From the NCBI RefSeq assembly GCF_030063205.1, contig NZ_JASISQ010000004.1, positions 213,707 to 277,706 on the forward strand: a DNA stretch of 64,000 bases, in the 5' to 3' direction. Positions 1,682 through 17,688 of this stretch are shown piece after piece (position 1 is the stretch's first letter; every line of letters starts with the position of its first letter). The position numbers and the translations under genes are program-made. A model generated the notes under the pieces. That model ran no database searches. It was not told the origin of the DNA and saw only the letters and a program-made list of their open reading frames with translations. Source of the DNA: Arthrobacter antibioticus. GTDB taxonomy: Bacteria; Actinomycetota; Actinomycetes; Actinomycetales; Micrococcaceae.

Positions 1682-2887
1682 TTACAGACCCAGAGCGCGC
1701 TGGTCACGAGTCGAGGCAACCTTCGAGGACATCCCCCAGAGCTCGATGAAGCCCTTCGCCTGCGACTGATCGAAGGTATCTCCGGTGTCGTAAGTGGCAA
1801 GGTCAAAGTCGTAGAGGGAGGTTTCTGAACGACGACCGTTGACGATTGCCTGGCCGCCGTGCATGGTCATGCGGATATCACCGTTGACGTGCTGCTGAGT
1901 GTCTTGGATGAAGGCGTCCAAGGAGCGCTTCAGCGGGGAGAACCACTGGCCATCATAGACAAGCTCTGCCCAGCGCTGGCTAACAGTGGCCTTGAAGCGA
2001 GCCTGCTCGCGCTCAATCGTGATGTCTTCAAGGTGCTTGTGGGCAGTCATCAGGGCCATGGCGCCGGGTGCTTCATAGATCTCACGGCTCTTGATGCCAA
2101 CAAGTCGATCCTCAACAACGTCGATACGGCCCACTCCTTGAGCGCCCGCACGGCGATTCAATTCCTGGATCGCTTGCAGGGGTGAGACTTTCACCCCGTC
2201 AATGGCGACAGGGATGCCGCGGCTGAAGGAAATAATAACTTCATCAGGTGCCGGAGGGAATTCCGGGGTGGCCGTGTAGTCGTAAATGTCCTTTGTAGGT
2301 GCATTCCAGATGTCTTCGAGGTAGCCGGTTTCAACAGCGCGACCCCAGACGTTCTGGTCAATCGAGTACGGGTTTTTCTTCGTTGTCTCGATGGGCAGGT
2401 TGTGGGACTCGGCGTAAATAATCGCTTTATCGCGGGTCAGGGCCAAGTCGCGAACTGGTGCAATGCACTTCAGGTCCGGGCCGAGGGTCTGGATGCCAAC
2501 TTCAAAACGAACCTGGTCGTTACCTTTTCCTGTGCATCCGTGGGCAACAGTGGTAGCCCCAAATTCCCTGGCAGCTTTGACCAAGTGCTTGACGATCACG
2601 GGCCGCGAGATGGCCGAAACCAGCGGGTAGTGGCCCTGGTACAGCGCATTGGCCTGCAGCGTGGGCATGGCGTACTCGTTAGCGAACTCGTCACGTGCAT
2701 CCGCAACGTAAGCCTCCACCGCCCCACAGCCAAGGGCGCGCTGGCGGATGTCTTCAAGTGATTCCCCACCCTGTCCTACATCAACAGCCACTGCGATAAC
2801 TTCGGCACCGGTAGCTTCACCGATCCAGCCAATGGCAACCGAGGTGTCCAGGCCACCGGAGTAAGCCAATACAATGCGTTCAGTCAC
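1682..2887 (-). CDS. argG: Argininosuccinate synthase
   Basis: ATP-dependent condensation of citrulline and aspartate to argininosuccinate. The 401-residue protein starts with the N-type ATP pyrophosphatase P-loop ([15 protein letters not shown]), and the conserved [14 protein letters not shown] segment is present. It is separated from argR by 176 bp that hold a promoter and an ArgR operator, so argGH forms its own transcription unit as well as lying downstream of argCJBDFR. The start ATG has an upstream AGGGAGAG Shine-Dalgarno. Confidence 0.98.
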
Positions 2888-2992
2888 GTTCGCTCTCCCT
2901 AATTCATTAAAAAGTTCTTGAGAATTTGTTGCTACTCGTTGAGGTTTTTACAAAAACGACTCCGAGCGTCCTTCGCGTTACTAACAAGCATA

Positions 2993-3008
2993 ATGCATGG
3001 TTATGCAT
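2993..3008. promoter_or_regulatory. ArgR operator (ARG box) at the argG promoter
   Basis: On the minus strand ATGCATAACCATGCAT is a near-palindrome that matches 13 of 16 bases of the mycobacterial ARG box as I remember it (TTGCATAACGATGCAA). It lies just downstream of the predicted argG -10 element, covering about +3 to +18, which suits repression by ArgR with arginine. The argR gene ends 56 bp away. Confidence 0.75.
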
Positions 3009-3017
3009 TCTTACTAA

Positions 3018-3046
3018 AATATATTCAATATAGTTTAGGAGGTCAG
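3018..3046 (-). promoter_or_regulatory. Predicted argG promoter
   Basis: On the minus strand CTGACC (3041-3046) and TATATT (3018-3023) are separated by 17 bp. The predicted start of transcription is near 3011, immediately ahead of the ARG box, leaving a leader of about 120 nt before argG. Confidence 0.55.
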
Positions 3047-3063
3047 GTGCAATGCTTCCCCGG

Positions 3064-5901
<2,838 letters not shown>

Positions 5902-5902
<1 letters not shown>

Positions 5903-6801
5903 CAGTGGCCGTCCTTGTCCGGGAAAATTTGCGTTCCGTTGCCCTCAAAAGTCATCAATTCCAACAACATTGAATGGGCGCTGCGCCCGTCGACAACAGC
6001 GGCACGGGCCACACCGCCGTCGACCGCGGCCAAAGCCGCCCCCATCTTGGGGATCATGCCAGATTCCAGTGACGGCAACATTGCACGCAATGCCTCCGAT
6101 CCAATCTCGCTAAGCAGTGAGGACTTATCGGGCCAATTCGAATAGAGGCCCTCGACGTCGGTCAGGATCACCAACCGCGAGGCCTGCAGAGCCACCGCCA
6201 ACGCTGCGGCTGCGGTATCAGCATTGACATTCAACACCGTTGAGGCATCCCCAACTTCGGGAGCCACGGTGGAGATCACCGGGATCCGGCCGGCCTCCAA
6301 GAGGTCAAGAATGGCCCCGGGATTCACACCCACCACCTCGCCAACAAGCCCCAGATCTACGGCAAGGCCATCAACAATGGTCCCCGTGCGTTCGGCCTGC
6401 AGTAGGGCGCCATCCTCACCAGAAAGTCCGACGGCATAGGGTCCGTGCTCGTTGATCAGGCCCACCAGCTCGCGGCCAACCTGACCGGTAAGGACCATCC
6501 TGACAACATCCATTGCCTCGGGTGTGGTGACGCGCAGGCCTCCCTTGAATTCGCTTTGGATGTCCAAGCGCTTGAGCATGGCATTGATTTGCGGCCCACC
6601 GCCATGCACAACTACCGCCTTGATGCCGACGTGGTGCATAAAGACAATATCCTGCGCAAACGCACGGCGCAGTTCATCATTGACCATGGCGTTGCCACCG
6701 TACTTGACCACCACCACGGTGCCGGCAAATTGCTGAATCCAAGGCAGCGCCTCAATCAGCGTGCCAGCCTTATCCTGCGCGGTTTCCACCGAAGTCATCA
6801 T
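5902..6801 (-). CDS. argB: Acetylglutamate kinase
   Basis: Phosphorylates N-acetylglutamate; usually the arginine-feedback-regulated step. Motifs [20 protein letters not shown] and the C-terminal SGMIPKM are typical of the amino-acid kinase fold. The open frame extends to 6879, but I chose ATG 6801 (tandem ATGATG, 6798 also possible) because GAAGGA lies just upstream and homology starts there, giving 299 residues. The gap to argJ is 91 bp, and TGATG couples it to argD. Confidence 0.95.
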
Positions 6802-6892
6802 GAAAGTCCTTCTTCTGTGTTCGTATACATCAAGGCGGGCCCCGTCCTGGAGTTGGACAGCCACCAAAGCCAACCACAATCAACCGGCGGCG

Positions 6893-8062
6893 TTACGAGG
6901 AGTAAGCGCTGTTTTCTTCGACGTAGGCGTGCGTTAAGTCGTTGGTCCAGATGGTGGCTTCGGCGATGCCGGCGTTGAGATCGATTTCAACGCTGACTTC
7001 GCGCGGAGCCAGATCAACCAGGTCCCGGGAGTCCCCAATGCAACCGTTGCGGGCGATCTGAACACCATTGATGCTGACGTTGATCTTATCGGGATCAAAA
7101 ACGGCGTCAGTGGTGCCAACGGCGGCAAGCACGCGACCCCAGTTGGGGTCGTTGCCAAAGATCGCGGCCTTAAACAGGTTGGATCGGGCCACGGAACGGG
7201 AAACGGTTTCGGCGTCGCGCTCGCTGTCCGCGTGCCTGGTGGTGATGGCAATGTCGTGGCTGGCACCTTCGGCATCGGCAATCAGTGCTCTGGCCAGGGA
7301 TGCGCAAACATGGGTTAGTCCGGCCGTGAATTCCTCCATGTCAGGGAAAGCAGTTGAGGAGCCCGAGGCCATGAGGAGCACTGTGTCATTGGTGGACATG
7401 CAGCCGTCGGAGTCGGCACGGTTAAAGGTGAGGCGAACGGCGTCGCGCAGGGCAACGTCCAGGCCTTCGGTTTCAACTCCTGCATCCGTGGTGATAACCA
7501 CCAACATAGTGGCCAGACCGGGTGCCAACATACCTGCACCCTTAGCCATGCCACCGATGGTGTACGTGACGCCGTCGGCATTGGCCGGCGAAGTCCAGAG
7601 CGCCTCTTTGGAGACGCTATCGGTGGTCATGATGGCGGTGGCGGCGGCAGCTCCGCCGTCGTCCGTCAAGGCGGTGGCGGCAGCTTCCACGCCGGCCAGG
7701 ATCTTATCCATCGGCAGCTGTTCACCAATGAGGCCAGTGGAGCATACGGCAATATCCGTTGCTGAAAGGCCCAAAAGTTCGGCAACTTTTTCGGCAGTGG
7801 CGTGGGTGTTTTGGAAACCTTCGGGACCGGTGCAGGCATTGGCCCCGCCAGAATTCAGCACGACGGCGTCAACCCTTCCGTCGCCGAGCACCTGCCGCGA
7901 CCAATGGATGGGTGCCGCCGCCACGCGGTTGGAAGTAAAGACTGCGGCGGCGCTGCGATGTGGCCCCTCGTTAACAACGAGGGCCATGTCAGGGCTACCT
8001 GAGGTTTTCAATCCAGCTGTTACGCCGGAGGCCCGAAAGCCCAGTGCTGAGGTCACGCTCAT
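6893..8062 (-). CDS. argJ: Bifunctional ornithine acetyltransferase / N-acetylglutamate synthase
   Basis: Recycles the acetyl group from N-acetylornithine to glutamate, and often makes N-acetylglutamate from acetyl-CoA as well. The 389-residue precursor has the autocleavage motif [14 protein letters not shown]; cleavage is expected between Ala184 and Thr185, with Thr185 as nucleophile. The cyclic pathway fits the absence of argE and argA nearby. It overlaps the argC stop by 4 nt. Confidence 0.97.
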
Positions 8063-9105
8063 GGTGCTACTCCTTGGAAGGTCAGACCTGTTGTTTCAGG
8101 CAGGCCGAGGGCAATATTCATTGACTGCACTGCCCCGCCGGCAGTGCCCTTGGTGAGATTATCAATGGCACAGCAAACAATCACTCGGTTAACGTGGGCG
8201 TCATAGGCAATTTGGATAGCTGCATAGTTGGACCCTTGCACAGACTTTGTTGCAGGCCACTGGCCCTCCTCAAGCACATGCACAAAAGGCTCCTCGTCAT
8301 AGGCATCCACCCAGATTTCACGTAAAGCCGCTGCGGGATCAGCCAATGCCGCGAACTCAGCCGAGACCTTGGCCGTGGCAGTTGTGAGGATACCGCGGCT
8401 CATAGGGGCCAAAGTAGGTGTGAATGAAACAGTTACTTCCTTGCCGGAAGCGTTGGAGAGCCCCTGTTCAATCTCCGGGGTGTGGCGGTGCCCGCCTCCC
8501 ACGCCGTAGGGGCTCATTGAGCCAATAACTTCGGAACCTATCAGGTTGATTTTGGCGGCTTTGCCAGCCCCGGAGGTCCCGGACGCTGCGACGATGACTA
8601 CGTCATCGGGCAGCAGTGCGTTAGCTGCGAAACCCGGCAGGAGGGCCAGCAGGGAGCTTGTTGGGTAGCAGCCGGGAACGGCGATTCGTTTGGCGCCACG
8701 AATTTTTTCGCGGTGGCCGGGCAGTTCGGGCAGGCCATAGGGCCAGGTGCCTGCGTGCTCAGAACCGTAGAATTTTTCCCAAGCCGCTGCATCTTCCAGA
8801 CGGTGATCGGCACCGGCGTCGATTACGAGCGTGTCAGCTGGCAACAGCGCGGCAATGGCAGCAGAGGCCCCATGCGGCAAGGCCAGAAAGACGACGTCGT
8901 GCCCGGAAAGGTTATCAACTGTGGTCTCGACCAGGACCCGGTCTGCCAGCGCGTGCAGATTCGGCACGAGGGAGCCTAATCGAGCTCCGGCGTTGCTGTG
9001 GGCCGTGATGGCACCGATGCTTACGTTGGGATGGCTGGCCAGCAGACGCAGCACTTCTCCCCCGGCATATCCGCTGGCTCCGGAGACAGCTACTGAAATT
9101 GTCAT
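8059..9105 (-). CDS. argC: N-acetyl-gamma-glutamyl-phosphate reductase
   Basis: NADPH-dependent reduction of acetylglutamyl phosphate to the semialdehyde, and first gene of the arg operon. The N-terminal Rossmann motif is GASGYAG and the catalytic Cys146 sits in VPGCYPTS; length is 348 residues. There is no Shine-Dalgarno sequence. The hexamer TATAGT ends 6 nt before the ATG, so the transcript is probably leaderless. Confidence 0.97.
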
Positions 9106-9244: not shown

Positions 9245-10219
9245 ATGACCGAGTACGCCAACGCCATCCTCGCCCAGGCCCCGGGCGGCCCGGAGGTTTT
9301 GAAGCTCACCCAGGTTCCTATGCCGGTCCCTGGGCCCGGTGAATTGCTTGTCAAAATCGCCGCCGTGGGTGTGAACTTCATTGAGAGCTACCAGCGTGAG
9401 GGTATTTATCCTGTGGATTTCCCGTTCATTCCCGGTGCGGAGGCGGCCGGAAAAGTTGTTGCTGTGGGCTCCGGAGTGAGCTCCTATGCCGTAGGAGATC
9501 GCGTGGCCACGGCCGAGGGCGTGGCCTGCTATGCCGAGTACGCTATTTTCCCTGCCGATAAGGCACTGCCCGTCCCTTCCAGTGTGCCGCTGGACGTGGC
9601 GGCAGCTCTCCCGCTTCAGGGCATGACGGCGCACTACCTGATGAATTCCACCTACCATGTTGAGCCCGGGCAGACAATCCTGCTACACGCCGGCGCTGGT
9701 GGTGTGGGCCTGCTGCTGACCCAGATGCTCAAGGAACGCGGGGCCCGAGTCTTCACAACAGTGTCAACCGAAGAAAAGGAAGAGCTCTCCCGAGTTGCCG
9801 GTGCCGATGAGGTGTTGCGTTACGAGGACTTTGCCGAGCAGGCCCGTGAGCTCACGGATGGCGAAGGTGTGGATGTGGTGTTCGACGGCGTTGGTAAGGA
9901 CACTTTCGATGGTTCGCTTGCGTCGCTGCGCACCCGAGGGACCCTTGTACTCTTTGGGGGCGCCTCCGGGCAAGCGCCTCCCTTTGATTTGCAGAGGCTC
10001 AATGCTGGCGGCTCGCTAACAGTAGTCAGACCCAAGCTCGGAGACTATCTTCGTAACGGCAAGGAACGCTTGTGGCGCTCAACCGAAGTGTTCGACGCAG
10101 CAGCCTCCGGCCGGCTAATCGCTCGGCTTGGTGCCCGCTTCCCGCTCTCCGAGGCCGGCGCGGCGCACACTGCGCTGCAAGGCAGAAACACCACTGGCAA
10201 AGTTATTTTGGAGCCCTAG
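9245..10219 (+). CDS. NADPH:quinone oxidoreductase family protein
   Basis: Zinc-free medium-chain dehydrogenase of the zeta-crystallin/QOR type that reduces quinones or reactive enones with NADPH. The 324 residues have VGVNFIESYQREG, the nucleotide motif HAGAGGVGLLL near residue 150, and no zinc-ligand cysteines. The frame is open back to 8831 through the argC region, but ATG 9245 has GGAG 6 nt upstream and is where family homology begins. A -10-like TATGAT is at 9184-9189. It is divergent from argC and not obviously linked to it. Confidence 0.88.
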   Translation: MTEYANAILAQAPGGPEVLKLTQVPMPVPGPGELLVKIAAVGVNFIESYQREGIYPVDFPFIPGAEAAGKVVAVGSGVSSYAVGDRVATAEGVACYAEYAIFPADKALPVPSSVPLDVAAALPLQGMTAHYLMNSTYHVEPGQTILLHAGAGGVGLLLTQMLKERGARVFTTVSTEEKEELSRVAGADEVLRYEDFAEQARELTDGEGVDVVFDGVGKDTFDGSLASLRTRGTLVLFGGASGQAPPFDLQRLNAGGSLTVVRPKLGDYLRNGKERLWRSTEVFDAAASGRLIARLGARFPLSEAGAAHTALQGRNTTGKVILEP

Positions 10220-10434: not shown

Positions 10435-13400
10435 TTGTTGCCCGCTATTCAACTGCTGTTCATCTTGACCGTGCAAGGTGGGCAGGTGAACCCCGCCCCT
10501 TTGAGTGACCCCTTGCCCCAGGCTGCCGTGTCAGCCGAACCGGCAGCAGCGAAACCGGCAGCAGCCAAATTCGCCGCACAAATGCCTGGCAGCGAGCTTG
10601 CGCCAGATCCCCGAACCCTGTGGGAGGTACTGCAAGCCACGGCCGAGCTGCACCCTGACGCCACAGCACTGGACGATGGCGTGAAAGCGCTTAGCTACGA
10701 AGACCTCTTGAAAGCAGTGCACGGCAAGGCTCAGGAATTGACTCAAGCCGGTCTAGGCGCTGGCGACAGAATAGGTGTGCGGATACCCTCAGGCACGTCC
10801 GGGCTTTACCTTGCCATTCTGGCAATCCTCTCCATTGGGGCCGCCTACGTGCCAGTGGACGCTGACGATCCCGCCGAACGTGCTTCGCTGGTCTTTACTG
10901 AAGCCGGCGTGGCTGCCGTCCTTGGAGATGAACTAACAGGAGAGGCGATAACGCTAACACTTGACAGGGCATGCCCAGGTCCCTTCCCTGAGCCCAGGGC
11001 ACCGCTTCCCAGCGACGATGCCTGGATTATTTTCACCTCCGGCTCAACCGGTACCCCGAAAGGTGTGGCTGTCAGCAACCGTTCCGCTGCTGCCTTTGTT
11101 GATGCTGAAGCCCGCATTTTTTTGCAGTCAGATCCGCTCGGCCCGGAGGATAGAGTTCTGGCCGGATTGTCTGTAGCTTTCGATGCTTCCTGCGAGGAAA
11201 TGTGGCTGGCCTGGCGCTACGGAGCCGCTTTGGTTCCAGCACCCCGCTCATTAGTCCGATCCGGCATGGATTTGGGCCCGTGGCTGATCTCGCACGGTAT
11301 AACGGTGGTCTCAACCGTGCCAACGCTGGCGGCGCTGTGGCCCGCCGAGGCACTGGAATCGGTGCGCCTGCTGATCTTTGGTGGAGAGGCCTGCCCGCCA
11401 GAACTCGCCACTCGATTGGCAGTTCCCGGTAGGGAAGTCTGGAACACCTATGGCCCCACAGAGGCAACCGTAGTGGCATGTGCTGCGCCGTTGGGCGGGC
11501 CAGGCCCTGTGCGTATCGGGCTGCCGCTAAACGGTTGGGACCTGGCAGTTGTTGATGGGGCTGGAAGGCCCGTAACTGAGGGCGAAGTGGGCGAGTTAAT
11601 CATTGCCGGTGTGGGCTTGGCACGCTATCTTGACCCGACCAAGGATGCCGAGAAATACGCTCCCCTGCCTGAATTCGGTTGGGAGCGTGCCTACCGAAGT
11701 GGCGATCTTGTGCGTCTTGAGAGCGTAGGCCTTGTGTTCATGGGCCGGGCGGATGATCAGATAAAACTGGGCGGGCGGCGCATTGAACTCGGCGAAATCG
11801 ACGCGGCTTTGCAGGGCCTGCCGGATATCTCTGGTGCCGCTGCTGCAGTGCAGGAAACGGCTGGTGGCAACCAGCTCCTGGTCGGCTACCTGGTACCGGC
11901 TCCGGGCACCAGCCCGGATCCCGGCGCGCTGCGGGAACTACTGGCCGAGTCGCTTCCAGCACCCATGATTCCGCTTCTGACTTTCACGGATTCACTGCCC
12001 ACCAAAACAAGCGGCAAAGTGGATCGCACCGCTCTGCCCTGGCCGTTGGATCAGGACATGGACGAGGGCGTCTCGCTCGCGGGCACACTGGGCCCGGATG
12101 CCGAGTGGGTGCTGGAACAATGGCATAGCGTTTTGGGTGGTACCCCCGCTTCGCTCGACACAGATTTCTTCGCCAGCGGCGGCGGCAGTCTGGCCGCAGC
12201 TCAGCTGGTTTCTGCGCTACGACAGCGCTACCCGCGAATAACGGTTGCAGAGGTCTATTCCCACCCCAGGATCGGAGCCCTGCTGGAATTGGCCGTGGGC
12301 TCCAATCCTGCCGGCGATCCTCTGAAAATAGTCGATCGCACAGTGGGGCGCACGCGGCGAAAATCCCAGGTGTTCCAAACGCTCATGGGTGTGCCACTGC
12401 ACCTCCTTGTGGGAATGCGCTGGCTCACATACCTTATGGCCTTGAACAATGTGGCAGCGTGGCAGGGCATCCTGCCCGGCGCCCCCACCATTTCCTGGTG
12501 GTGGGTAGGGGCCTCCTGGCTTGTTTTTGTCTCACCGTGGGGTCGCATGGCGATCTCGGTAGTGTGCGCGCGTCTGCTCCTCCACGGCGTTCAGCCGGGC
12601 AGTTATCCCCGCTCCGGTAAAGTGCACCTGCGGTTGTGGCTCGCAGAACAAATTGCGGACATGGCCAGCGCTGTCAGCCTGGCCAGTGCCCCCTGGGTAC
12701 CGTATTACGCCCGAGCTTTGGGCGTAAAGATGGGCCGCAATGTGGATCTCCACTCAGTGCCGCCTGTGACTGGATTGCTTCGCTTGGCCGAAGGTTGCTC
12801 GATCGAACCCGAGGTGGATCTCTCCGGCTGGTGGATCGACGGAGACTGGGTGCACATAGGCGAGATTTCCATTGGTAGCGGCGCTGTCGTAGGAGCCCGC
12901 AGCACTCTGATGCCGGGAGCACGCGTTGGCGCCGGTGCTCATGTGGCACCAGGTTCCGCGGTGCGCGGCAAGGTCAAACCCGGGGTGACGGTTTCCGGCT
13001 CCCCGGCAGAAAGGACTGGGAAGGCTAAACACTCCTGGCCGGATCTGCGTACGCCCACCAACGGGTGGCATGAACTACCCTTTGCAAGCGCAGCCGCATT
13101 GCTATCCCTGCTTCCTTTCATGGCGGCGGCTGTGGCCGTTGGCGCAGTGTTGCTGAGCGTCAATGGACAGAGTTCATTATCTGCCTCAATTCCTACCCTG
13201 TTGTGGTCTGTTCCCGTGGCAGCACTGGCATGGTTCCTCACCTTGGTTGGGCTGATCCTGCTCACGGTTCGGTTGCTGGGCATAGGCCTCCGCGAGGGGC
13301 ACTACCCGGTGCGTAGCCGGATTGGATGGCAGGTTTGGGCCACCGAACGCGTGCTGGATATGGCTCGGGATCTCTTGTTCCCGATCTACTCCAGCCTGTT

Positions 13401-14469
13401 CACACCCATCTGGTTGCGTCTTTTGGGGGCCAAGGTCGGCAAGAACGTGGAGGCTTCAACGGTGTTGCTGCTGCCCAAAATGACAACTATCGGTTCCGGC
13501 GCTTTCTTGGCCGATGACACCATGATCGCCTCCTATGAGCTGGGTGGCGGATACATCCACATCGCACCCGCAAAAGTGGGTAAGCGTTCATTCCTTGGCA
13601 ACTCCGGCATGGCAGCGGCAGGGCGCACAATGCCACGGAATTCTTTGGTGGCGGTCCTCTCGGCAGCCCCTGCCAAGGCAAAGGCTGGTACGTCGTGGCT
13701 AGGCAGTCCGCCTGTGCGCTTGCGCCGCACCAATCTCAACACCGATGAGTCGCTCACTTTCGCCCCACCCTTGCGGCTCAAGCTGGCTCGAGCCCTCTGG
13801 GAAAGCTGCCGGCTGGTACCAACGGTTCTTTCTGTGGCCGTGGCCGCAGCAGTGCTGGTTACCTTTGACGGCGTCGCACTTGCCGGCAATTACTGGTTGG
13901 CTGCACTCTTCAGCGGCATCGTCATGATGGCCGCCGGTGCGTTTGGCGCTGGCAGCTCAGTGGCCGCCAAGTGGGTCCTGGTGGGCCGCATCAAACCCGG
14001 GGAGCATCCGCTGTGGAGCTCGTTCATTTGGCGTAACGAAGTGGTCGATACATTTATTGAAATGGTCAGTGCCCCTTGGTTTGCCCGCGCGGCTGTGGGC
14101 ACCCCGGCCATGGTCTGGTGGTTGCGTGCTCTCGGAGCGAAAATCGGGCACGGAGCCTGGTGCGAAAGCTATTGGCTCCCCGAAGCCGACCTTGTCACGC
14201 TGGGTGAAAGTTCCACTGTCAACCGAGGGTGCGTAATCCAAACGCACCTCTTCCATGACAGGGTCATGGCCATTGATTCGGTTACGCTTGAAGAGGGTGC
14301 CACCATGGGTCCGCATGGTGTGATCCTGCCCGCGGCACGGATTGCTCGCAGCGGCACTGTGGGCCCGGCCTCCCTTGTCATGCGCGGAGAAACAGTACCT
14401 GCCAGCAGCTATTGGATGGGAAACCCAATCAGCCCCTGGAAGGGTCCCGAGTTTGCCGACCGCGCTTAG
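10435..14469 (+). CDS. Pls/PosA-type single-module NRPS (poly-epsilon-lysine synthetase-like)
   Basis: Membrane-bound synthetase of about 1344 residues. Adenylation domain at about 55-535: FTSGSTGTPKG (A3, from Phe200), FDASCEEMW (A4, from Phe249), NTYGPTEAT, and SGKVDR (A10, Lys528). Thiolation domain at about 545-620 has GGGSLAA with the phosphopantetheine Ser585. Then come six membrane segments (about 652-672, 686-712, 883-909, 922-948, 1127-1145, 1153-1175) around three soluble domains with hexapeptide-like repeats. There is no condensation or thioesterase domain. This is the plan of epsilon-poly-L-lysine synthetase. The hand-read code DAESIGTVVK suggests a cationic substrate, lysine or similar. 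Start is uncertain: TTG 10435 lacks a ribosome site, and GTG 10486 follows AAGGTGG and may be real. Confidence 0.85.
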   Translation: MLPAIQLLFILTVQGGQVNPAPLSDPLPQAAVSAEPAAAKPAAAKFAAQMPGSELAPDPRTLWEVLQATAELHPDATALDDGVKALSYEDLLKAVHGKAQELTQAGLGAGDRIGVRIPSGTSGLYLAILAILSIGAAYVPVDADDPAERASLVFTEAGVAAVLGDELTGEAITLTLDRACPGPFPEPRAPLPSDDAWIIFTSGSTGTPKGVAVSNRSAAAFVDAEARIFLQSDPLGPEDRVLAGLSVAFDASCEEMWLAWRYGAALVPAPRSLVRSGMDLGPWLISHGITVVSTVPTLAALWPAEALESVRLLIFGGEACPPELATRLAVPGREVWNTYGPTEATVVACAAPLGGPGPVRIGLPLNGWDLAVVDGAGRPVTEGEVGELIIAGVGLARYLDPTKDAEKYAPLPEFGWERAYRSGDLVRLESVGLVFMGRADDQIKLGGRRIELGEIDAALQGLPDISGAAAAVQETAGGNQLLVGYLVPAPGTSPDPGALRELLAESLPAPMIPLLTFTDSLPTKTSGKVDRTALPWPLDQDMDEGVSLAGTLGPDAEWVLEQWHSVLGGTPASLDTDFFASGGGSLAAAQLVSALRQRYPRITVAEVYSHPRIGALLELAVGSNPAGDPLKIVDRTVGRTRRKSQVFQTLMGVPLHLLVGMRWLTYLMALNNVAAWQGILPGAPTISWWWVGASWLVFVSPWGRMAISVVCARLLLHGVQPGSYPRSGKVHLRLWLAEQIADMASAVSLASAPWVPYYARALGVKMGRNVDLHSVPPVTGLLRLAEGCSIEPEVDLSGWWIDGDWVHIGEISIGSGAVVGARSTLMPGARVGAGAHVAPGSAVRGKVKPGVTVSGSPAERTGKAKHSWPDLRTPTNGWHELPFASAAALLSLLPFMAAAVAVGAVLLSVNGQSSLSASIPTLLWSVPVAALAWFLTLVGLILLTVRLLGIGLREGHYPVRSRIGWQVWATERVLDMARDLLFPIYSSLFTPIWLRLLGAKVGKNVEASTVLLLPKMTTIGSGAFLADDTMIASYELGGGYIHIAPAKVGKRSFLGNSGMAAAGRTMPRNSLVAVLSAAPAKAKAGTSWLGSPPVRLRRTNLNTDESLTFAPPLRLKLARALWESCRLVPTVLSVAVAAAVLVTFDGVALAGNYWLAALFSGIVMMAAGAFGAGSSVAAKWVLVGRIKPGEHPLWSSFIWRNEVVDTFIEMVSAPWFARAAVGTPAMVWWLRALGAKIGHGAWCESYWLPEADLVTLGESSTVNRGCVIQTHLFHDRVMAIDSVTLEEGATMGPHGVILPAARIARSGTVGPASLVMRGETVPASSYWMGNPISPWKGPEFADRA

Positions 14470-14501
14470 AATCCCAGACTGATTTGGATACCATCCCAAG
14501 C

Positions 14502-15962
14502 ATGAATTTTCTTCACCGCACCCGGCACTCCGCCTTGGCGGCCAGCACCTCGGGGCCCAACGCCTCAGCCTCAGCCCCTGAGTCCGCTGAGGTCACTGAG
14601 TCCGCTGAAGTCACTGATTTACAGGCCACGGTGGTTCCAGCACGTCCGGATCCTTATATTCCACTGCACGGGAACACCAGCTACTCGATGGTGCATTACG
14701 AGCTTGATTTGGAAGCCCGGCTTGCCGGCAACCAGCTCACGGGCCGTGCCATTATGACTGCACGAGCACTCGTGGCTTTGACACACGTTGAACTTGATCT
14801 CACAGGCTTGGGCATGGACAAAGCAACTGTGGACGGAGCCCGGGTGGTTAAACATTCCCACCGCAACGGGAAACTGCAGTTACTCCTGCCTGTTCCTGTG
14901 CAGGCGGGGGCGGAATTCACTATGGACATCCGCTATAGCGGGATCCCATCACCTGATAACGATCAATGGGGCGATGTTGGTTGGGAAGAACTGGACGACG
15001 GCGTGTTGGTCGCCGGCCAGCCTACAGGGGCGCCCACGTGGTTCCCTTGCAACGATAGGGCCGATAACAAGGCTTCGTACCGCTTTACCATCACCACCGA
15101 CGCCGACTACACGGCTGTGTGTAATGGGACGCTTGTGTCCCACACAAGGAAATCCAGTCGGGAAACATGGGTGTACGAACAGCTGGCACCCATGGCCCCC
15201 TACTTGGCCACGCTGCAGATCGGCCGCTACAAACTATTGAGGCTGCCTGAGAGTAAAAACGGAACAAAGCTACCCATTACAGTGGCTGTGCCCAAAAAAT
15301 TGCAAGCTCAGGCTGCGGTTGCTTTGGCCAGGCAGCGAGAGATGGTGGATGTTTTCGCAGCGAACTTTGGCCCGTACCCGTTTGAGACGTATACGGTGGT
15401 GGTGACCGAGGACGAACTGGAGATTCCCTTGGAGGCGCAGTCCCTATCCATTATCGGCAGCAACCACCTGGACACCGGCTGGGAGTCCCAGCGGCTGATT
15501 GCCCACGAACTCTCACATCAGTGGTTTGGCAACTCATTAACCCTGACATCGTGGTGTGACATCTGGCTGCACGAAGGTTTTGCCTGCTACGCCGAATGGC
15601 TGTGGTCCGAAGACAGCGGGTCAATGAGTGTTGCCGAACGTGCAACCGCTGCGCATGAAAAACTACAATCAGAGCGCAACAACCTGGCAATCGGCGATCC
15701 TGGTCCGAGGGACATGTTCGATGACGCCGTTTACAAGCGCGGAGCCTTGGCCCTGGAAGCCCTCCGCACTACCGTCGGCGACACCCATTTCTTCGCTCTA
15801 CTGCAGCGTTGGGTGGCGGAAAACCGCCACGGATCGGTCACCACGGCGGGATTCATAGCGCTAGCTGACCGAGTATGTGCCACTGTGCAGGGATTCTCGG
15901 CCGCTGACGTTTTAGCACCGTGGCTATACCAACAGCCACTGCCACCATTGGCACACCACTAA
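14502..15962 (+). CDS. M1 family zinc metallopeptidase (aminopeptidase)
   Basis: Gluzincin aminopeptidase of 486 residues. Zinc site: His335-Glu336-x-x-His339 in HELSHQWFGN, with Glu358 in WLHEGFACYAE. The substrate-side motif is PLEAQ rather than GAMEN, as in other short actinobacterial M1 enzymes, and the C-terminal helical domain is absent. There is no signal peptide. It starts 32 nt after the Pls-like gene. TACCAT lies 7 nt before the ATG and no Shine-Dalgarno is present, so it may also have its own leaderless promoter. The N-terminus carries an 18-bp duplication (14579-14614, ESAEVTESAEVTD). In epsilon-polylysine producers an aminopeptidase of this kind degrades the polymer; that role here is inference. 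Confidence 0.87.
   Translation: MNFLHRTRHSALAASTSGPNASASAPESAEVTESAEVTDLQATVVPARPDPYIPLHGNTSYSMVHYELDLEARLAGNQLTGRAIMTARALVALTHVELDLTGLGMDKATVDGARVVKHSHRNGKLQLLLPVPVQAGAEFTMDIRYSGIPSPDNDQWGDVGWEELDDGVLVAGQPTGAPTWFPCNDRADNKASYRFTITTDADYTAVCNGTLVSHTRKSSRETWVYEQLAPMAPYLATLQIGRYKLLRLPESKNGTKLPITVAVPKKLQAQAAVALARQREMVDVFAANFGPYPFETYTVVVTEDELEIPLEAQSLSIIGSNHLDTGWESQRLIAHELSHQWFGNSLTLTSWCDIWLHEGFACYAEWLWSEDSGSMSVAERATAAHEKLQSERNNLAIGDPGPRDMFDDAVYKRGALALEALRTTVGDTHFFALLQRWVAENRHGSVTTAGFIALADRVCATVQGFSAADVLAPWLYQQPLPPLAHH
14579..14614. repeat. 18-bp direct repeat x2 in the M1 peptidase N-terminus
   Basis: TGAGTCCGCTGAGGTCAC (14579-14596) is repeated with one change at 14597-14614. It keeps the frame and encodes the duplicated SAEVTE in a non-conserved leader of the protein. 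Confidence 0.85.
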
Positions 15963-15971
15963 ACGCCCCAG

Positions 15972-16748
15972 CTAAATTTTACCGCTGACGCGCAAAGCGA
16001 CAGCTCCGGCAAAGTCCTTGGGTAGGCCGCACTCCCCCGGAGCAAGATCCCACACATCGGTTTTAGCATCTGCGCCTGTTACTGCCTCTTCTAATTCTGG
16101 GTAGGCCATGATGTCACGCGGATCGGTGCGCAGACCCAAACCCGTGACTTTAGCCAACGCTTCTTTCCGGGCCCACGTTCTGGCCCGCCACTGATCCTGC
16201 GTCGCTGGCTCCAGCTGAGCGAGAGAGAACTTTTCGGCGGCGCTCAGCGCCACGTCGTCGTACCCGGCAAAGACCACCGCGGGGATGTGTTGAACATCGA
16301 TGCCGAGGCCGATCCCGGCTCTAGGAATCATGGCTCTAGGAATCATGGCTATAGGAATCAAGGCTGTAGGAATCATGGCTGTAGGGATCATGGCTGCCAG
16401 TGCCCAACCGTGACTGCGGGAGAAACTAATTGACACGGGCGCAGGTACGCCCCCGAGCTGGTAGCCGGGGCGGCCATGGGAAGAGAGCGGACTCGCAGAA
16501 CAATCGGGGCAGTTATAGTCTGCCACGAGTGCACGCGGGTCAACCTGAAGCAATTGCGCAGCCATTAGGCGTTGCACCACGCGTCCGGCAATGAAGTCAT
16601 GACGCGTTGCAGCATTGACAATGGAAGCGGCGCGGAAATGTTCAGCAGGGTCCAAGAGTGTGGCCAAATTTTTATCCACCTGTGCCAAGTCAAAGGCCTC
16701 CACGGCAACGTGCTCGCGCGCAAGTACGTCAAACCCTATTCCGTTCAT
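15972..16748 (-). CDS. 4'-phosphopantetheinyl transferase, Sfp type
   Basis: Transfers phosphopantetheine from CoA to a carrier-protein serine; the natural client here is Ser585 of the Pls-like synthetase. The 258 residues show the SISFSRSHGWALAA segment, the metal motif GIGLGIDVQ (Asp151, with Gln153 where Glu is usual) and WARKEALAKVTGLG with Lys195/Glu196. A run of five pentapeptides (about residues 119-144, AMIPT-like) is inserted exactly between the SHGWALA strand and GIGLGID. It converges on the M1 peptidase with a 9-bp gap and is divergent from ppk2. The insert and the E-to-Q change leave activity slightly in doubt. Confidence 0.88.
   Translation of the reverse strand: MNGIGFDVLAREHVAVEAFDLAQVDKNLATLLDPAEHFRAASIVNAATRHDFIAGRVVQRLMAAQLLQVDPRALVADYNCPDCSASPLSSHGRPGYQLGGVPAPVSISFSRSHGWALAAMIPTAMIPTALIPIAMIPRAMIPRAGIGLGIDVQHIPAVVFAGYDDVALSAAEKFSLAQLEPATQDQWRARTWARKEALAKVTGLGLRTDPRDIMAYPELEEAVTGADAKTDVWDLAPGECGLPKDFAGAVALRVSGKI
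16317..16391. repeat. 15-bp tandem repeat x5 inside the PPTase gene
   Basis: GGCTCTAGGAATCAT and near copies start at 16317, 16332, 16347, 16362 and 16377, with a partial copy at 16392. In the protein they give AMIPT/ALIPI/AMIPR units. The exact 15-bp period keeps the frame. Confidence 0.95.
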
Positions 16749-16803: not shown

Positions 16804-17688
16804 ATGACTGAACCACACCCGGAATTCACCGGTTTTAGTGTTATTGACAGCGACGACGACGATCCCATCCTGTTGGCGCCGGACGGCTCCCAAGTTGACA
16901 CGTGGCGCCACGGCTACCCGTATGACGCCCGTCTGGAGAGGGAGGTTTACGACGTTGAAAAGCGGTTGCTGCAAATTGAACTTTTAAAGCTTCAGCAATG
17001 GATCAAGGCTACCGGGCGGCGCGTAATAATCTTATTTGAGGGCCGTGATGCCGCAGGTAAGGGCGGTACCATCAAACGCTTCACCGAGCATTTGAATCCT
17101 CGCGGCACACGCGTGGTTGCATTGGAAAAGCCCAGTAAGCGTGAGTCTACTCAATGGCATTTCCAGCGTTATGTGGCACACCTGCCAAGCTCTGGTGAAA
17201 TGGTGTTATTCGATAGGTCTTGGTATAACCGCACGGGCGTTGAACGGGTCATGGGTTTTTGCACCAAGGAGCAGTATGAGGAATTCATCCGCCAGGCCCC
17301 AGCGTTTGAGCGCATGCTTGTCAATGACGGAATGACTGTGGTGAAGTTCTGGTTTTCCGTCACCCAAGCCGAGCAACGCACCCGTTTCATCATTCGCCAG
17401 GTGGACCCCGTACGGCAGTGGAAGCTCTCCCCCATGGATGTGGCCTCGCTGGATAAGTGGGATGCTTACACCTCTGCCAAGGAACGCATGTTTAAAAAAA
17501 CTGACACACGACATGCACCGTGGACCGTGGTGAAGTCCAATGACAAGAAGCGGGCCCGGTTGGAAGCGATGCGGCATGTGCTCAACCTGTTTGACTACAC
17601 AGGTAAGGACCATGCGCTGGTAGGGATACCTGATCCACTGATCGTTGGCCCCGCCTCCGCAGTGGTGGGCGAGGGTGAAGAGTTTTAG
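16804..17688 (+). CDS. ppk2: Polyphosphate kinase 2 family protein
   Basis: PPK2-type kinase that uses polyphosphate to phosphorylate nucleotides (GDP/ADP in class I enzymes). The 294 residues have the Walker A FEGRDAAGKGGTIKRF, the Walker B-like lid FDRSWYNRTGVERVMGF, and the C-terminal DKWDAYTSAKERMF and APWTVV blocks. The frame is open from 16615, but ATG 16804 is where homology begins. TACGCT lies 6 nt upstream and there is no ribosome site, so it is probably leaderless. It is divergent from the PPTase with 55 bp between; a functional link to the Pls-like locus is speculative. Confidence 0.92.
   Translation: MTEPHPEFTGFSVIDSDDDDPILLAPDGSQVDTWRHGYPYDARLEREVYDVEKRLLQIELLKLQQWIKATGRRVIILFEGRDAAGKGGTIKRFTEHLNPRGTRVVALEKPSKRESTQWHFQRYVAHLPSSGEMVLFDRSWYNRTGVERVMGFCTKEQYEEFIRQAPAFERMLVNDGMTVVKFWFSVTQAEQRTRFIIRQVDPVRQWKLSPMDVASLDKWDAYTSAKERMFKKTDTRHAPWTVVKSNDKKRARLEAMRHVLNLFDYTGKDHALVGIPDPLIVGPASAVVGEGEEF

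Follow-up and report, generated by a model that had tools for sequence, protein, structure and literature searches.

A predicted epsilon-poly-L-lysine locus of Arthrobacter antibioticus with linked peptidase, phosphopantetheinyl transferase and polyphosphate kinase 2 genes

Epsilon-poly-L-lysine is an industrial food preservative, and its production in Streptomyces albulus is described, in the available text of two reports, as limited by ATP supply (PMC10012588, PMC10157215). An operon pairing the gene of its synthetase, pls, with a peptidase gene has been published for Streptomyces and Corynebacterium, and the accessible portions of the same papers name Pls homologues in Arthrobacter and Glutamicibacter (PMC8117764, PMC4361855). 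Here we describe such a locus from Arthrobacter antibioticus, situated in a stretch of 64,000 nucleotides (contig NZ_JASISQ010000004.1, positions 213,707 to 277,706; 'the window') that is part of contig 16 of a 3.79 Mb genome, 99.99% complete. In it, pls is followed by genes for an M1 metallopeptidase, a phosphopantetheinyl transferase (PPTase) and a polyphosphate kinase 2 (PPK2). Our best explanation, to which we give a probability of roughly 80%, is that the locus makes epsilon-poly-L-lysine, with the M1 peptidase trimming the polymer, the PPTase priming the synthetase and, in part of the family Micrococcaceae, PPK2 recycling ATP. From sequence similarity, the substrate pocket, gene order and co-occurrence we infer the product, the peptidase substrate, the PPTase target and the role of PPK2. 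The pls-M1 core is of the published locus type. Recognition of that type, and of a PPK2 gene that lies just past the annotated part and recurs beside pls, goes beyond an earlier first-pass annotation of this DNA.

The S. albulus Pls/PldII system (adenylation domain structure 7WEW) resembles the window in domain order, in substrate pocket and in having a degrading peptidase, a predicted one in our case, in tandem with the synthetase. In that species the pls and pldII genes overlap by 4 bp, and PldII degrades the polymer, according to the available text (PMC4361855, PMC9223678); the M1 gene of a Streptomyces plasmid locus (L040) overlaps pls by the same 4 bp. The window, in contrast, has a 32-nt gap between pls and the M1 gene, a convergent PPTase gene, an adjoining PPK2 gene and an adenylation domain of 66% identity. 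Corynebacterium variabile and other coryneforms share the pls-peptidase operon of the window, and the C. variabile Pls made epsilon-poly-L-lysine when expressed in S. coelicolor, as the accessible part of the report has it (PMC8117764); its main text contains neither the term polyphosphate nor phosphopantetheinyl transferase. Acinetobacter PosA, which makes delta-poly-L-ornithine, belongs to the same family and is described, in the text available, as a three-domain enzyme whose membrane domain is predicted to contain three beta-helices; its pocket, DMEHNGTVSK, prefers ornithine, and the window Pls differs from it in having Ala for Met at position 2 (PMC10522769). Available accounts of Pseudarthrobacter genomes list NAPAA (epsilon-polylysine-type) clusters (PMC12025171).

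A connection with polyphosphate has been made by engineering. Introduction of PPK2 together with a polyphosphate:AMP enzyme (PAP) into S. albulus raised epsilon-poly-L-lysine by 21% and intracellular ATP by 72%, in the accessible text (PMC10012588), and related results appear in portions of two further papers (PMC11274744, PMC10157215). That system (PMC10012588) is man-made, from enzymes of other bacteria, whereas in the window a PPK2 gene lies naturally beside pls; the latter may be a natural version of the engineered polyphosphate-driven recycling. In the available portions of open-licence full texts, no description of PPK2-pls or PPTase-pls linkage was found, and the candidate papers mention polyphosphate kinase only in general genome annotation.

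The genes and domains concerned are as follows (window positions, strand in brackets).

10435-14469 (plus): pls, predicted epsilon-poly-L-lysine synthetase, a nonribosomal peptide synthetase (NRPS) of the Pls/PosA family with adenylation-thiolation (A-T) module and membrane polymerisation domain; TIGR02353, AMP-binding and PP-binding matches
10612-12039 (plus): adenylation domain, about residues 60-535, from a phmmer alignment with 7WEW that is gapless through the first nine pocket positions
12103-12288 (plus): carrier (thiolation) domain, PF00550 at residues 557-618, motif FFASGGGS
12370-14430 (plus): membrane polymerisation domain, three helix pairs with beta-helix regions between and after them; TIGR02353 at residues 646-1332, AlphaFold2, Foldseek
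14502-15962 (plus): M1 metallopeptidase, PldII-like; PF01433, PF17900, HExxH-18-E at residue 335
15972-16748 (minus): Sfp-type PPTase; PF01648 at 40.9 bits against a cut-off of 25; converges on the M1 gene with a 9-nt gap
16804-17688 (plus): polyphosphate kinase 2, class-I-like, of a pls-linked clade; TIGR03707; divergent from the PPTase gene, 55-nt gap

Read from TTG 10435, pls encodes 1344 amino acids; two GTG codons in the same frame, at 10471 and at 10486, offer alternative starts, the second with a purine-rich stretch just 5' of it. Residues 646-1332 match the NCBIfam family TIGR02353 (Pls/PosA) with 693.5 bits (cut-off 423.1, E = 3e-208), and this open reading frame (ORF) is the sole match above that cut-off in the genome. 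Pfam places one adenylation domain at 67-397 and one carrier domain at 557-618, in which Ser585 of FFASGGGS is the expected phosphopantetheine site. Neither a condensation nor a thioesterase domain is listed; the protein is an A-T module lacking both, followed by the Pls terminal domain.

The membrane part was modelled with AlphaFold2 (residues 640-1344, 30 homologues), giving a mean predicted local distance difference test score (pLDDT) of 81.6 and a predicted TM score (pTM) of 0.85. Pairs of long helices occupy model residues 16-37/49-76, 254-270/277-309 and 474-511/514-544, and the first and second pairs are each followed by a well-modelled beta-helix region; in the third soluble region (model residue 601 onward) pLDDT is 33-66 and strands are few. 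The model thus contains six membrane helices in three pairs and three tandem soluble domains, the last at low confidence. A plain hydropathy scan (cut-off 1.6) detected the second and third pairs, missed the first and flagged one stretch in the adenylation domain. Foldseek searches of the PDB were headed by hexapeptide acyltransferases, among them serine and maltose acetyltransferases, at low query-normalised TM values (0.10-0.16 in the rows shown). The first-pass annotation had read from the letters an A-T protein without condensation or thioesterase domain, with six membrane segments and three soluble C-terminal domains, an M1 gene 32 nt downstream on the same strand and a converging Sfp-type PPTase gene, and this description held throughout, subject to the low confidence of the third soluble region; the structure prediction that it had proposed yielded a model in agreement with that of PosA, as described in the available text (PMC10522769).

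The best solved match to the adenylation domain is 7WEW, the epsilon-poly-L-lysine synthase domain of S. albulus (phmmer 7e-194), the 66% identity extending over 481 positions. With pocket columns set by what we take to be the corresponding GrsA numbering, the window Pls reads DAESIGTVVK, identical to 7WEW at 10/10 residues. Counting the window and 7WEW, 101 of the 106 rows in the alignment share this pocket; the five others comprise two DAESIGTVIK, one DFEYNGTVTK (L062, 35% identity) and two interrupted reading frames. Position 2 is reported, in the accessible text, as Ala in lysine enzymes, Met in PosA (ornithine) and Phe in the enzymes for diaminopropionate (Dap) and diaminobutyrate (Dab) (PMC10522769). 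The window Pls has Ala there, not the Met or Phe of PosA and the poly-Dab and poly-Dap synthetases. Because of its pocket identity with the S. albulus enzyme, the product of the window Pls is likely to be epsilon-poly-L-lysine.

The M1 gene has a possible ATG start at 14502, 32 nt past the pls stop, and would encode 486 amino acids; with its M1 domains and HExxH-18-E motif it is a metallopeptidase gene directly after pls, as is pldII. The nearest solved structure is a 474-residue zinc metalloprotease (6a8z/6iff). For comparison we assembled named loci, the best 80 of at least 595 by similarity to the window pls, so that the family is unevenly sampled. In 80/80 of them an M1 gene lies downstream of pls on the same strand, and in 77 its distance from the pls match is at most 183 nt. 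These neighbour counts come from tblastn on the named loci (M1 80/80, PPK2 6/80); unbiased clustering of mechanically chosen ORFs gave 61/80 and 5/80, the lower M1 figure probably reflecting longer antisense ORFs that displace the true gene. Among genus relatives the M1 gene is present in 6/6 pls-positive and 0/15 pls-negative genomes, and pls and M1 occur together in 19 of 58 genomes searched. By domain family and comparative genomics, the peptidase is best regarded as a putative PldII-like epsilon-poly-L-lysine peptidase. Copies of pls without an adjoining M1 gene were seen in L039, L041, L060 and L061. Separately, the DFE-type synthetase of L062 (G044, 2725-8080) has an M1-family ORF immediately next to it, on the opposite strand and converging, which is only distantly related to the window M1 (23% identity); an M1 partner may thus not be limited to lysine enzymes.

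The ORF at 16804-17688 matches TIGR03707 (PPK2_P_aer) at 375.7 bits (cut-off 301.8) and carries the Walker A motif GRDAAGKGG; this equivalog match with Walker motifs is presumably the mark of a class-I PPK2. Its closest solved neighbours are 5ll0/4yeg (1e-111) and the ADP phosphotransferase 6dzg (1e-95), polyphosphate:AMP phosphotransferases following at 3e-50 to 1e-32. It is the sole match at 1e-60 in its genome, where a PPK1 gene lies on another contig. Within the genus, PPK2 matches below 1e-150 occur in 6/6 pls-positive and 0/15 pls-negative relatives, three of the latter having weaker matches.

The linkage was followed through 245 Micrococcaceae genomes, a 'typical' pls being one of at least 60% identity. 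Such a gene is present in 107 genomes and absent from 138, 26 of which carry solely a copy of 54% identity or less. The top PPK2 group (matches at 1e-135 or better, a cut set after viewing the match list) is found in 43/107 genomes with a typical pls and 0/138 others (Fisher p 9e-19, uncorrected for shared ancestry). All but one of the 43, which is on another contig, lie within 10 kb of pls, always downstream on the same strand, at 1.46-1.57 kb in 21 cases, 2.1-2.9 kb in 18 and 4.2-8.4 kb in three. Among the 107 other family PPK2s in the matches listed, one has a pls within 10 kb. A tree was built from 14 linked sequences (window, seven family genomes, six named loci) and 20 unlinked ones; in it the linked PPK2s form one side of a branch with support 99/98, recovered in 100% of 200 bootstrap trees. 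One of the unlinked 20, from L160 (G262), is an other-clade PPK2 located 2.6 kb from that genome's second pls, and the two may have been paired independently. Two PPK2s of 70-75% identity from genomes outside the family (G041, G048), which have no pls at 1e-100, fall outside the linked clade in the tree.

Four gene orders were seen: pls-M1, convergent PPTase, PPK2 in the window genus; divergent PPTase, pls-M1-PPK2 in L078 and L082; PPK2, then pls, M1 and convergent PPTase in L075 and L081 (Arthrobacter); and pls-M1-PPK2 with no PPTase match in L118 and L128. In L075 and L081 the PPK2 stop apparently lies at least 11 nt past the nearest pls start, an apparent overlap. Arthrobacter rhizosphaerae, too, has its PPK2 gene immediately ahead of pls. 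Genes that remain close through such re-ordering are better evidence of a common role than genes in an invariant order. As linkage, the association of PPK2, and of the PPTase, with pls is well supported; a joint function is putative. In one family genome (G176, contig 1, about 640-647 kb) the pls and PPK2 matches contain stops and the PPTase gene is matched in part, a pattern that would fit joint decay of the set or poor assembly there. Three Arthrobacter loci (L071, L072, L087) have a PPK1 gene, 81-83% identical to that of the window genome, some 2.3-2.8 kb beyond M1; PPK1 is near pls in these 3/104 loci, all Arthrobacter.

PPK2 could instead be a passenger, an old neighbour held in place by vertical inheritance and playing no part in polymer synthesis, and this we regard as a credible reading, albeit one that we would not back at even odds. 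It is consistent with the 64/107 typical-pls genomes of the family that lack a top-group PPK2. Outside Micrococcaceae, no such PPK2 was found in the flanks fetched for 47 named loci (0/47; membership, 33 of the 80 inside the family, was sorted by title). Taken together these absences mean that PPK2 is not required, and they count against its part in the best explanation. Two upstream neighbours with no evident role, which served as synteny anchors, are likewise conserved, each in 27/33 Micrococcaceae loci:

8059-9105 (minus): argC, edge of an arginine gene cluster, name read from the translation
9245-10219 (plus): quinone-reductase-like oxidoreductase, probably outside the polylysine pathway

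Passive inheritance accords less well with gene orders that differ between lineages while proximity is kept, with the apparent overlap of PPK2 and pls in L075 and L081, and with the distribution of the PPK2 group, which is missing from each of the 138 genomes that lack a typical pls, even though the family commonly carries other PPK2s. Tentatively, and at a little short of an even chance, we hold that in some Micrococcaceae pls, M1, often the PPTase and a dedicated PPK2 form a natural polyphosphate-powered module, kept through several rearrangements. If so, a locus combining synthetase, polyphosphate kinase and carrier activator would offer ready-made production parts, and the question would arise whether polyphosphate stores time polymer synthesis.

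The PPTase belongs to the ACPS superfamily, GID and WARKEA being visible in its alignment; we take GID and KEA to be PPTase motifs. It has a match in 30/80 named loci, 29 of them on the strand opposite to pls, and in 26/33 Micrococcaceae loci. At 1e-15, 42 of the 245 family genomes contain a match, and in 41 it lies within 10 kb of a pls. In 37 of these it is on the strand opposite to a typical pls and downstream of it; in four (G134, G189, G218, G227) it shares the strand of a more distant pls and lies upstream. The remaining genome, G226, has no pls match. Within the genus, matches below 1e-20 are confined to the six pls-positive relatives.

It is conceivable that this PPTase serves carrier proteins other than that of Pls. 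The window genome has three Sfp-size PPTases, the one at the locus included, and one AcpS-size protein, as well as a further NRPS frame of 2893 amino acids with two adenylation domains; accordingly another of these enzymes may prime Pls. Against such a division of labour stand the 41/42 matched genomes that keep the PPTase near a pls, in two arrangements, and the restriction of the genus matches to pls-positive relatives, and we consider it unlikely. Priming of Pls by its neighbour remains our preferred reading, and the locus makes the identity of the Pls-priming PPTase directly testable.

A tandem repeat lies within the PPTase gene:

16317-16396 (no strand): 15-bp tandem repeat, 5.3 copies, found with Tandem Repeats Finder (TRF)

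It lengthens the protein by about 20 residues and is absent from 11 aligned relatives. The PPTase of L050 has a different repeat in the same place, and a genome of the same species (G161) has a PPTase match shorter by 15 nt, consistent with variation in the number of repeat copies.

The proposed mechanism runs as follows. Adenylation domains spend ATP, yielding AMP and PPi, for each residue loaded, and Pls would charge its own carrier domain with L-lysine at this cost, once a PPTase, probably that of the adjacent gene, had primed the carrier. The membrane domain would form the bonds between lysines at the epsilon amino group and would probably also export the chain, which the M1 enzyme, like PldII, would cut for self-protection or control of chain length. 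In part of the family the class-I-like PPK2 would most likely convert ADP to ATP at the expense of polyphosphate, meeting the heavy ATP demand, with PPK1 elsewhere in the genome supplying the polyphosphate. Class-I PPK2s phosphorylate ADP, and adenylate kinase would have to turn the AMP made by Pls into ADP beforehand.

Several points besides the absences of PPK2 already given weigh against this explanation. The mismatch between AMP from Pls and the ADP used by class-I PPK2 makes an adenylate kinase bridge necessary. A PPTase match (1e-15) is present in 12/43 PPK2 genomes, so that fewer than half of them show the complete four-gene set; at this sensitivity the figure is a lower bound. All the genome counts for pls, PPK2, PPTase and M1 are raw co-occurrences uncorrected for shared ancestry, and one deletion could take neighbouring genes together. 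Among the 58 genomes searched, G044 has a pls without an M1 match at 1e-60, G039 has a 35% identical M1 without pls, and in G026 the two lie on separate contigs. A hydropathy scan found no hydrophobic N-terminal stretch in the window M1, and PldII is reported to lie outside the membrane, in the available text (PMC9223678). Lastly, C. variabile, with a functional Pls, gave no detectable polymer in its own culture, as reported in the accessible text (PMC8117764); the window locus may thus be silent.

PPK2 reactions are reversible, and the polymer and polyphosphate are oppositely charged, so the enzyme might run in reverse, building polyphosphate as counter-ion or storage partner of the polycation. 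The nearest solved relatives, PPK2s including the polyphosphate:ADP phosphotransferase 6dzg, and the presence of PPK1 for synthesis in the same genome argue for the ATP-forming direction, and we judge the reverse one distinctly improbable. Use of a diamino acid other than lysine, such as ornithine, diaminobutyrate, diaminopropionate or beta-lysine, is very improbable: the Pls/PosA family does yield several such polymers, in the available text of PMC10522769, but the window pocket matches the solved S. albulus Pls at every residue, including the Ala that occupies the chain-length position, and the DFE-type pocket was seen only in the single 35%-identical copy in L062. A different substrate, a chance gathering of genes and a decayed locus are disfavoured by the pocket, the 80/80 pls-M1 linkage and the open reading frames. 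Domain families and comparative genomics thus uphold the first-pass proposal of a Pls-like synthesis locus with a trimming peptidase and linked PPTase, and its cationic polymer is narrowed by the pocket to a predicted epsilon-poly-L-lysine.

Some further pls loci deserve mention. In the window genus, L048 and L046 (G011, G014) have a pls frame interrupted near the N-terminus, by nature or by sequencing error. Two Rhodococcus opacus plasmid loci (L039, L164) have pls without an annotated adjoining M1, among genes for CYTH-CHAD, PhoU, PstB and histidine phosphatase proteins. A wider polyphosphate link was considered on this account and dropped, as CYTH-CHAD, phosphatase and PhoU are each found in 1/104 pls loci (their own); PstB matches, mostly weak, occur in 7/104. 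On a Mycobacterium intracellulare plasmid (L041), pls without M1 sits beside large NRPS, PE/PPE and cysteine-synthase-like genes. L060 and L061, together with 43-54% identical copies, represent a second, more distant pls type in the family; these two loci have the pocket DAESIGTVIK and no adjoining M1, and in four other genomes the PPTase gene is upstream of a pls of this distant type.

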